From: Anaeromyxobacter dehalogenans 2CP-1
GTDB lineage: Bacteria; Myxococcota; Myxococcia; Myxococcales; Anaeromyxobacteraceae
NCBI RefSeq assembly: GCF_000022145.1
Contig: NC_011891.1
Location: 186,001-250,000 of the forward strand
DNA length: 64,000 nucleotides
Direction of reading: 5' to 3'
The notes under the pieces are model-generated. The model saw nothing but the letters and a program-made list of their open reading frames with translations. It did no database searches and had not been told where the DNA came from. Below, one piece after another: positions 8,240 to 48,443 of the stretch (position 1 is its first letter; every line of letters begins with the position of its first letter). The position numbers were made by a program, and so were the translations under genes.

Positions 8240-9324
8240 AGATCTACCCGGTGATCATGGCGGGCGGCTCGGGCACGCGGTTCTGGCCGCTGTCGCGCCG
8301 CAACCGCCCGAAGCAGTTCCTGGCGCTCGCCGGCGACGCGCCGCTGCTCGCCGCCACGGTGAGCCGGCTCCCGCCGCTGTCGCGGCCCAGGGACACGTTC
8401 GTGGTGTGCGGGCCGAAGCACGCCGCCGCCGCCCGGCGGATGGTGGCGCAGCTCCCGAAGGAGAACTTCATCGTCGAGCCGTGCGCGCGGAACACCGCGC
8501 CCTGCGTGGGCCTCGCCGCCATCCACGTGGCCGCGAAGGACCCCCGCGGCGTCATCGCCATGCTGCCGGCCGACCACCACATCGGCCGGCCCCCGGCGTT
8601 CCGCGACGCGCTGGCCGCGGCCGCCCAGCTCGCCGAGGCCGGCTCCATCGCCACCATCGGCATCCGCCCCTCGCGCCCCGAGACCGGCTACGGCTACCTG
8701 AAGCTCGGGCCGCGCCTGGCCGCGCGCGCGAAGGGCAAGAAGCGGCTGGTGGCGCACAAGGTCGAGCGCTTCGTGGAGAAGCCGGACGTGGTCACCGCCG
8801 CGCGCTACCTCGCCGACGGCAGCTACCTCTGGAACTCGGGCATCTTCGTGTTCCGCGCCGACGTGATCCTGGACGAGATCCGCCGCGCCATGCCGGTGCT
8901 GGGCGAGCAGCTCGAGGCCATCCGCCGCACGCTCGGCACGCCGAACTACGCGCGCACGCTGAAGCGCGTCTTCCCCGACTGCCCGTCCATCTCCATCGAC
9001 TACGGCGTGATGGAGAAGAGCCAGCGCATCGCGGTGGTGCCGGCCGAGTTCGGCTGGAGCGACGTGGGCAGCTTCGCCGCGCTCTCCGACGTCCGCGTCA
9101 CCGACGACCTCGGCAACGTGGCGGAGGGCGACGCGCTCGTCATCGACGGCCGCAACAACGTGGTGCTGGCCGGGAAGGACCGGCCCATCGCGCTCATCGG
9201 CCTCGACGACGTCATCGTGGTGGACTCGGGCGACGCGCTGCTCGTGTGCCGCCGCGACCGGGCCCAGGACGTGCGCAAGGCGGTCGAGGAGCTGGGCCGC
9301 CGCGGCCGCGAGGAGCTCCTCTAG
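8236..9324 (+). CDS. manC: Mannose-1-phosphate guanylyltransferase
   Basis: Forms GDP-mannose from mannose-1-phosphate and GTP. The 362-residue protein opens with the nucleotidyltransferase signature MAGGSGTRFWPLSRRNRPKQ and has RFVEKPD and the EFGWSDVGSF segment characteristic of this enzyme. There is no C-terminal phosphomannose isomerase domain, so it is the single-function form. GTG at 8236 overlaps the Nudix stop. The phosphomannomutase gene downstream supplies its substrate. Confidence 0.93.
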   Translation: MKIYPVIMAGGSGTRFWPLSRRNRPKQFLALAGDAPLLAATVSRLPPLSRPRDTFVVCGPKHAAAARRMVAQLPKENFIVEPCARNTAPCVGLAAIHVAAKDPRGVIAMLPADHHIGRPPAFRDALAAAAQLAEAGSIATIGIRPSRPETGYGYLKLGPRLAARAKGKKRLVAHKVERFVEKPDVVTAARYLADGSYLWNSGIFVFRADVILDEIRRAMPVLGEQLEAIRRTLGTPNYARTLKRVFPDCPSISIDYGVMEKSQRIAVVPAEFGWSDVGSFAALSDVRVTDDLGNVAEGDALVIDGRNNVVLAGKDRPIALIGLDDVIVVDSGDALLVCRRDRAQDVRKAVEELGRRGREELL

Positions 9325-46767: not shown

Positions 46768-46980
46768 TCAGGCGGCGTCGCGCCGCGCGGCCGGCTGGGC
46801 GCGGGCGCAGGGGGGTGCGGCGGCGGCGCCGCCCGCGTGCACCTTGGCGAGGGCGGCCACGCAGCAGCGGCAGGCGGTGCCCGCGCCGGTCTCGGCGATC
46901 ACCTGGCGGAGCGAGGCGCCCTCGGCCGCGCGCCGCCGGACCAGCGTGTCGGAGACGTTGAAGCACAGGCAGACGATCAT
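46768..46980 (-). CDS. bfd: Bacterioferritin-associated ferredoxin (Bfd)-like [2Fe-2S] protein
   Basis: A 70-residue protein whose cysteines C4, C6, C37 and C40 match the Bfd C-x-C ... C-x-x-C pattern (MIVCLCFNVSD and GTACRCCVAAL). Bfd reduces the bacterioferritin core so that iron can be released. The C-terminal tail is Ala/Arg-rich. The ATG overlaps the stop of the upstream Fur-like gene as ATGA, and bfr follows on the same strand, so the context is iron mobilisation. Confidence 0.85.
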   Translation of the reverse strand: MIVCLCFNVSDTLVRRRAAEGASLRQVIAETGAGTACRCCVAALAKVHAGGAAAAPPCARAQPAARRDAA

Positions 46981-47216
46981 GCCCGGCCCCACCCGCGCGG
47001 CAGCGGGCCGGCCGCGCCGGCGCGACAGGCGGCGCAGCAGCCGAACAGGCGCAGGCGCGGCGCGCGCACCTCGAAGCCGTTCCGGGACGCGGCGGAGGCG
47101 GCGAGCGCGCGCAGATCGGGGTCGATGGCCACCACCGCGCCGCAGCGCGTGCAGACGAGCGCGCACGACGGCTCGGGGGTGGCGGAGGAGGGGGCGGGAT
47201 CGCGGGGAGGGTGCAC
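46977..47216 (-). CDS. Fur C-terminal-domain-only protein (no DNA-binding domain)
   Basis: Seventy-nine residues from GTG 47216. The sequence CALVCTRCGAVVAIDPDL, followed by NGFEVRAPRLRLFGCCAACR, matches the dimerisation and structural-zinc domain of Fur-family regulators, with both CxxC pairs. The winged-helix domain is absent, and no matching frame exists upstream. The His-rich regulatory metal site before the first CxxC is also missing. ATG at 47258 is in frame but lies beyond the Fur box at 47238-47256, so the GTG after a CGGAG site was preferred. It is coupled to bfd. Confidence 0.65.
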   Translation of the reverse strand: MHPPRDPAPSSATPEPSCALVCTRCGAVVAIDPDLRALAASAASRNGFEVRAPRLRLFGCCAACRAGAAGPLPRGWGRA

Positions 47217-47237
47217 CGGGGCTCCGGAGATGATGTT

Positions 47238-47256
47238 GAGAATGACTCTCACTATC
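47238..47256 (-). promoter_or_regulatory. Fur box upstream of the Fur-CTD/bfd genes
   Basis: Minus strand reads GATAGTGAGAGTCATTCTC, identical to the classical 19-base Fur box at 15 of 19 positions by eye. It stands out as an AT-rich island in very GC-rich DNA. It lies 22 bases before the preferred GTG start. Confidence 0.75.
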
Positions 47257-47351
47257 ATGGGCGCGGCCCGCCGTCATGACGCCCATCAAGCGGGGGCCGG
47301 AATCGTGCCGGCCGGGCGGGGAGGCGCCCGGCCCGGCGCGCCGGCGGCGCG

Positions 47352-47390: not shown

Positions 47391-48443
47391 GTGCCGGATT
47401 CCTTCGACCTGGGCGCCTTCCGCCGCGATCTCACCCGCCGGACGGCCGACGCGGTGCACGCGCTGCGCTCCCGCATCGGGTCCGAGACCCTGTACGGCTT
47501 CGCGCTGTTCACGAGCGGGGAGCGGGACTTCGCCTGGGTGCGCGCCTCGGCCAACACCGAGGACGCGCTCACCCGGCGCGCCGCCGCCGCCGCCGCGCTG
47601 GACCCGCGCTTCCGGGGCGAGGCCGGGCGGCGCCTGCTGCGCTGGTCGGCCCCGGACTGGGAGTACCACGACTTCGCGCCGGAGGTCCGCGGGCTGGCGG
47701 TGCCGCCGCCGGAGGGCCGGCGGTCGACGCTGGACCCGGCGCTCTACGACGCGTTCGTGGGCGCGCTGAAGGCGGTGGACCGGGCCGGGCTGTTCGGCCG
47801 CGGCGCGGATCGCGCCTTCCTCACCGTGAACATCCTCTGCGACCACGCCTCGCCGGCGTTCTTCCGGCGCGGGCTCCGCGTGCTCAACCCGGTGCCCACG
47901 GCGGAGCGCCACCTGCACGAGACCGCCGCCGCGCCGTTCGTCCGCTGCGTGAACCGCGCCCCGCGCCGCGAGCGGATGCGCATCTGGCTGGCGCTGTACG
48001 AGGACCTCTACATGGAGTGGCGCACCCCCATCGCCGAGGAGGCGCGGGCGCGGGGGCTGAGCCCGTGGGAGGTCGAGGAGGAGCTGGCGCGCTTCGGGCC
48101 GAAGGTGGTGCCGGCGCTCATCGACCTCCTCGCGCACTACGGCTTCGCGGCGCCCATCGACCACAACCGCGGCTTCGAGACGCGCGAGGTGTGGCTGGCC
48201 GGCTCGGCGCTGTTCCTGGTGCGCCGCATCGGGATGGTGGCGGAGGCGGAGATCGCGCGCCTGCAGCGGCTGGTGGGCGACTTCGCCGAGCGCGACCGCC
48301 GCCTGCGGGTCGCGTCCACCCTCGCCGAGAACACCGCCCGCGTGCTCCACGAGCTCCGCCCGCGCCGCTTCCCGCCGTCCGAGATGGACCCGCTCACCTT
48401 CAAGCTGACGAACCCCGAGCCGTTCCTGCTGCGGCGGCCTTGA
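47391..48443 (+). CDS. DUF4303-like protein, unknown function
   Basis: A 350-residue soluble protein. The N-terminal part (LYGFALFTSGERDF, ASANTEDAL, LRWSAPDWEYHDFA) resembles DUF4303, a family known from polymorphic toxin immunity contexts and otherwise uncharacterised. The C-terminal 170 residues are helical with conserved-looking WLALYEDLYMEW and no recognised family. No toxin gene is adjacent. Cytoplasmic; function not assigned. Confidence 0.55.
   Translation: MPDSFDLGAFRRDLTRRTADAVHALRSRIGSETLYGFALFTSGERDFAWVRASANTEDALTRRAAAAAALDPRFRGEAGRRLLRWSAPDWEYHDFAPEVRGLAVPPPEGRRSTLDPALYDAFVGALKAVDRAGLFGRGADRAFLTVNILCDHASPAFFRRGLRVLNPVPTAERHLHETAAAPFVRCVNRAPRRERMRIWLALYEDLYMEWRTPIAEEARARGLSPWEVEEELARFGPKVVPALIDLLAHYGFAAPIDHNRGFETREVWLAGSALFLVRRIGMVAEAEIARLQRLVGDFAERDRRLRVASTLAENTARVLHELRPRRFPPSEMDPLTFKLTNPEPFLLRRP

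Follow-up and report, generated by a model that had tools for sequence, protein, structure and literature searches.

The Fur family has been called monolithic, with a low diversity of domain architecture (PMC5882156). A small gene of Anaeromyxobacter dehalogenans 2CP-1 raises the question of what one half of such a protein may do when it is encoded apart from the other. The gene lies in the 64,000-nucleotide stretch of DNA analysed here (the window), upstream of bfd and overlapping it, and its product, called short Fur below, resembles the C-terminal part of Fur alone. It could be a remnant, a modulator of Fur, a protein acting by itself or a partner of Bfd. The features that bear on the choice are listed in window coordinates, in the order in which they are read on the minus strand:

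47276..47289 (-), FNR/CRP-like dyad TTGATGGGCGTCAT, with a start-to-start distance of 38 bp to the Fur dyad downstream
47237..47251 (.), Fur-type dyad TGAGAATGACTCTCA (minus strand TGAGAGTCATTCTCA), followed after 20 bp by the GTG
46977..47216 (-), short Fur coding sequence, GTG start, ~79 aa; start conserved in 6 genomes
46977..46980 (-), stop/start overlap ATGA of short Fur and bfd, 4 bp; ATGA or GTGA in 6/6 genomes
46768..46980 (-), bfd, bacterioferritin-associated ferredoxin, 70 aa, CxC...CxxC; PF04324
46089..46568 (-), bfr, bacterioferritin, downstream after a gap of ~200 bp; TIGR00754, E 1.6e-60

A stand-alone Fur C-terminal domain protein

The initial annotation described an open reading frame with two CxxC pairs, lacking both the winged helix and the His-rich iron site of Fur. 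Both pairs, together with PRLRLFGCCAACR, are found within ORF 46977-47258(-), and both of the other elements are indeed absent. The ORF is a real gene; its start, however, is the GTG at 47216, which is common to all six genomes that carry it, and not the ATG at 47258, which is rejected because it falls within the Fur box and is not shared by the second of the two clades described below (clade B). From the common GTG the product is ~79 aa long here and 73-74 aa in clade B. In the window it consists of a Pro-rich N-terminal tail followed by LVCTRCG...LFGCCAACR.

Family models recognise the protein in part, the ORF aligning with the last third of Fur models only. Matches to Pfam FUR (PF01475) begin at about position 80 of 121; for the ORF just positions 82-120 are aligned (E 0.28), and its 11.8 bits, like the 13.7 bits of the listed clade B short Fur, lie below the gathering score of 23.1. 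The match to NCBIfam Fur (E 5.6e-5) is also below its cut-off. A profile built from the six short Fur sequences finds at least 13 Fur, Zur or PerR chains among PDB sequences (best E 9.5e-7). In addition, four cysteines and two glycines show no variation among the six short Furs and 17 full-length domains of the Fur type.

An AF2 model of short Fur reaches a pLDDT of ~90 over residues 20-60, from an alignment that included Fur-type C-terminal domains and hence leans towards Fur. The top-ranking PDB matches of this model are without exception C-terminal domains of Fur-family proteins (7dh8, with an rmsd of 1.8 over 50 columns), and a second structural aligner returns the Fur family in every row. 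When the structure is predicted from the six short proteins alone, the pLDDT is 66; the Foldseek matches listed are again all of the Fur family, and the second aligner gives Fur mixed with protein L/G folds. According to these models, short Fur is predicted to have the C-terminal dimerisation fold of the Fur family. Profile search, predicted fold and the four invariant cysteines uphold the original proposal of a Fur C-terminal domain standing alone upstream of bfd, and show this conserved small gene to encode a stand-alone Fur C-terminal (Cys4, dimerisation) domain protein.

What such a protein could bind is suggested by E. coli Fur, in which sites 1 and 2 are made up of His-87, Asp-89, Glu-108 and His-125 and of His-33, Glu-81, His-88 and His-90, respectively, and the cysteine site (site 3) holds Zn or a [2Fe-2S] cluster (PMC12538065). 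Binding at site 3 is reported to be necessary and sufficient for dimerisation of E. coli Fur, independent of sites 1 and 2 (PMC12538065). Short Fur has lost nearly all His/Asp/Glu ligands and kept the cysteine site. All six short Furs lack the HHDH motif, the helix Glu and the whole segment that holds His-33 and Glu-81 (E. coli Fur numbering); those of clade B retain one His, in AHSL or SHSL. Taken together, the retained cysteines, the lost HHDH and Glu ligands and the role of site 3 in E. coli point to a dimerisation or cluster module without a DNA-binding domain.

A stand-alone protein of the low-iron response, binding Zn or Fe-S or acting in redox, for which bfd is just a convenient operon mate, would also keep a Cys4 site. 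Additional cysteines in the window's clade (SCALVC, GCCAACR) and the iron-type control of expression indicated by the promoter dyads are in line with such a protein, but the strict overlap with bfd in two chromosomal settings would be left unexplained, and we regard this account as rather unlikely.

The operon and its promoter

The ATGA overlap of short Fur with bfd is present as first annotated, at 46977-46980(-), and the two genes are probably coupled in translation through these 4 bp. Bfd itself is a clear match to PF04324 (E 3.4e-9; 37.4 bits, gathering score 26) with MIVCLC...CRCC. Among the genomes with short Fur, bfr adjoins bfd in clade A only.

The Fur box placed just upstream by the initial annotation has been confirmed: read directly, GATAGTGAGAGTCATTCTC is identical to the E. 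coli Fur box at 15/19 positions. The core dyad TGAGANTNANTCTCA, with at most one mismatch, has two sites in the 5,029,329-bp genome (control, 0), and the second is in front of porin-feoA-feoB, so that within the genome the dyad is shared only with feoAB. Across the genus, TGAGANTNNNTCTCA is found at 0-3 places per genome, and every genome with short Fur (n=6) has one such site at the short Fur locus. All six short-Fur promoters also carry an FNR/CRP-like dyad (TTGATnnnnRTCA or 1 mismatch) 38-39 bp from the Fur dyad. Two further genomes, G004 and G006, have bfd without short Fur; there is no FNR/CRP-like dyad in the bfd promoter of G006, and none was seen in that of G004. The feo promoters of two clade A genomes, G000 and G002, have one ~50 bp from the Fur dyad (in L122, before it).

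With a putative Fur box in its promoter the operon looks iron-controlled, and the pairing of FNR-like with Fur dyads suggests joint control of iron mobilisation by oxygen and iron. The regulators that read these dyads would, we infer, be Fur and a protein of the FNR type. Scans for sigma-70 and terminator consensus sequences and a search of Rfam gave no match, and the literature searched, in partial coverage, yielded no data on iron-dependent expression of the operon.

Several observations concern the surroundings of these sites. The divergent neighbour (window 47391-48443) encodes a DUF4303 protein (E 1.8e-30) and, in clade A only, shares with the operon the intergenic region that contains the Fur box. 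An imperfect Fur-type dyad, TGATAATGGTTCTCA, is located close to where the full-length fur of the same genome starts (L139, position 7070), where autoregulation of fur through this dyad is possible. Genome G005 has two more TGAGA-N5-TCTCA sites (L155; L157 at 1501), one preceding a small gene that resembles those of CxxCH multihaem cytochromes and the other near a gene without known function.

Distribution, divergence and the choice of partner

The short Fur-bfd pair is intact in 6/8 near-complete Anaeromyxobacter genomes, that is, five besides the one analysed here, and forms two clades in two chromosomal settings. Each of the six carries the same unit of FNR-like dyad, Fur dyad, short Fur and bfd with the 4-bp overlap. 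In clade A (G000, which is the window's own genome, G001 and G002) the short Furs are 94% identical and bfr lies downstream of bfd. In clade B (G003, which corresponds to A. terrae SG22, G005, which corresponds to A. soli SG29, and G007) they are about 40-49% identical to those of clade A, and the unit is found at another chromosomal location with a helicase gene in place of bfr. The remaining two genomes have the arrangement Fur box-bfd-bfr with short Fur absent.

In the searches beyond these eight genomes no short form was recognised. Among 195 Myxococcota genomes the six short Furs score 114-130 bits, the next matches (at most 58 bits) are full-length Furs, and no other short form was found; in other Myxococcota, 20 bfd loci, stand-alone or candidate, likewise have no short Fur upstream. 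A weak match in G008 (L060) was rejected as due to chance. Outside the genus, two peptide motifs scanned against 84,980 species revealed no recognisable short form: at all but three loci the frame could be read, and the matches there are full-length Furs; since just two peptide patterns were used, diverged short forms could be missed. PADLOC gave no match. Clade B genomes also have a second bfd (L136, about 8978-9277; L137 in G007; L054 in G005), ~6 kb from full-length fur and preceded by porin-like, FMN-binding-like and membrane protein genes.

A non-functional remnant of fur, or a translated leader kept solely for coupling into bfd, would fit the patchy occurrence in the genus (missing from G004 and G006), the fast evolution in clade B and the score under the Pfam FUR gathering threshold. 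This explanation is very improbable. The gene is intact with all four cysteines in six genomes and both clades, and the same promoter layout recurs at different chromosomal places. Full-length Fur was not found at the locus in relatives, and a tblastn search with both Fur-type DNA-binding domains of the same genome identified no significant remnant of such a domain near the gene, including upstream. Between the window and two close relatives short Fur has a dN of 0.03 and a dS of 0.23-0.27, a dN/dS of about 0.11-0.13 that codon bias makes rough. Within clade B short Fur has ratios, equally rough, of 0.42-0.85 and bfd of 0.55-1.0, which indicate weaker constraint there, concentrated in the motifs. 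An intact unit in six of eight genomes, two clades and two settings makes a decaying remnant unlikely. The two short Fur clades fall together, with modest support (85/74), in a C-terminal domain tree, and the bfd tree leaves the branching order without resolution. Because promoter layout and overlap are shared by both clades, we argue for a single origin of the pair as a unit.

The rates of change bear on what short Fur may act with. Between clades it is about 40-49% identical and Bfd 37-44%, whereas in the C-terminal domain of full-length Fur G000 and G003 differ from each other at ~5 of 47 positions. Short Fur and Bfd thus drift alike while full-length Fur is nearly constant, which favours Bfd as the partner and argues against pairing with Fur, since the partner of a nearly constant Fur should not diverge so far. 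The link to Bfd is to this extent an inference from rates, and co-divergence can also mean shared relaxed constraint. It is further supported by the 4-bp overlap in all six genomes, the two chromosomal settings and the common FNR-like/Fur promoter layout. Counting against it are the high dN/dS values of clade B, where bfr is not adjacent, and the occurrence of bfd without short Fur in G004 and G006, from which it appears that Bfd works without short Fur.

Mixed dimers with full-length Fur, as first suggested, would make short Fur an antagonist: made at low iron, it would pair with Fur (or Zur/PerR) in one-headed dimers and so sharpen derepression. Short Fur retains the fold and also the Cys4 site by which dimerisation of Fur is driven (PMC12538065), expression lies behind a Fur-type dyad in common with feoAB, and there is precedent in small Fur-binding proteins that relieve repression, e.g., Fpa/YlaN (PMC11559061). 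Set against this, short Fur is only 43% identical (20 of 46) to the Fur domain of its own genome, diverges fast between clades where Fur is near-constant, and is always with bfd, never with fur or feo. We consider antagonism possible but unlikely.

We favour instead a partner dedicated to Bfd, which would dimerise and carry Zn or [2Fe-2S] at its Cys4 site. The best explanation, which we hold tentatively and with somewhat less than even confidence, is an iron-controlled operon in which short Fur serves as a Cys4, dimerising, stoichiometric Bfd accessory. Fur with iron would repress the operon, and low iron (and probably low oxygen) would switch it on. Short Fur would then bind Zn or [2Fe-2S] at its four cysteines and dimerise through the Cys4 module, and would neither bind DNA nor sense Fe(II). 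As an accessory of Bfd it may be a docking or adaptor subunit, or a holder or donor of [2Fe-2S], assisting as Bfd reduces bacterioferritin and stored iron is released. The more specific proposition, that a Fur half without its DNA-binding and Fe(II)-sensing parts has been recruited as a Cys4 [2Fe-2S]/Zn partner of Bfd, with the redox-sensitive cluster site of Fur acting directly in the release of stored iron and not in gene control, we think doubtful. More generally, the sequence comparisons suggest that half of Fur has been given a new, non-DNA-binding role. If short Fur works with Bfd, iron sensing chemistry would be joined to iron release from ferritin; if it pairs with Fur, a Fur antagonist would have been made from Fur itself.

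Relation to known systems

In the literature searched, which was covered in part, we came across neither a Fur reduced to one domain nor a pairing of such a protein with bfd. The locus resembles known bfd and bfd-bfr operons, such as those of G004 and G006, in having a Bfd with CxC...CxxC beside bacterioferritin behind a Fur box, and differs in that the short Fur gene is inserted between Fur box and bfd and overlaps bfd. Fpa (YlaN) of Firmicutes would be a parallel as a small Fur-modulating protein, if the antagonist reading is right (PMC11559061); Fpa, however, binds Fe(II) and has not been described as a Fur fragment, whereas short Fur is, by its sequence, just that.

The [2Fe-2S]- or Zn-bound form of E. 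coli Fur has the same cysteine site 3, and there binding and dimerisation have been shown (PMC12538065); here the site is on a protein without a DNA-binding domain, and cluster binding is putative. A conserved cysteine/dimerisation module that is encoded separately offers an isolated object, provided by nature, on which to test the claim made about [2Fe-2S] binding and dimerisation (PMC12538065). With the Fur family as a whole (Fur, Zur, PerR; PF01475), short Fur shares the C-terminal fold, the CxxC...CxxC arrangement, its spacing and the FG/YG before the second pair, but it has no winged helix, has lost HHDH and the helix Glu, is ~79 aa long and scores under the cut-offs of both Pfam and NCBIfam. 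It is best classed as a homologue of the Fur C-terminal domain and not as a Fur regulator.
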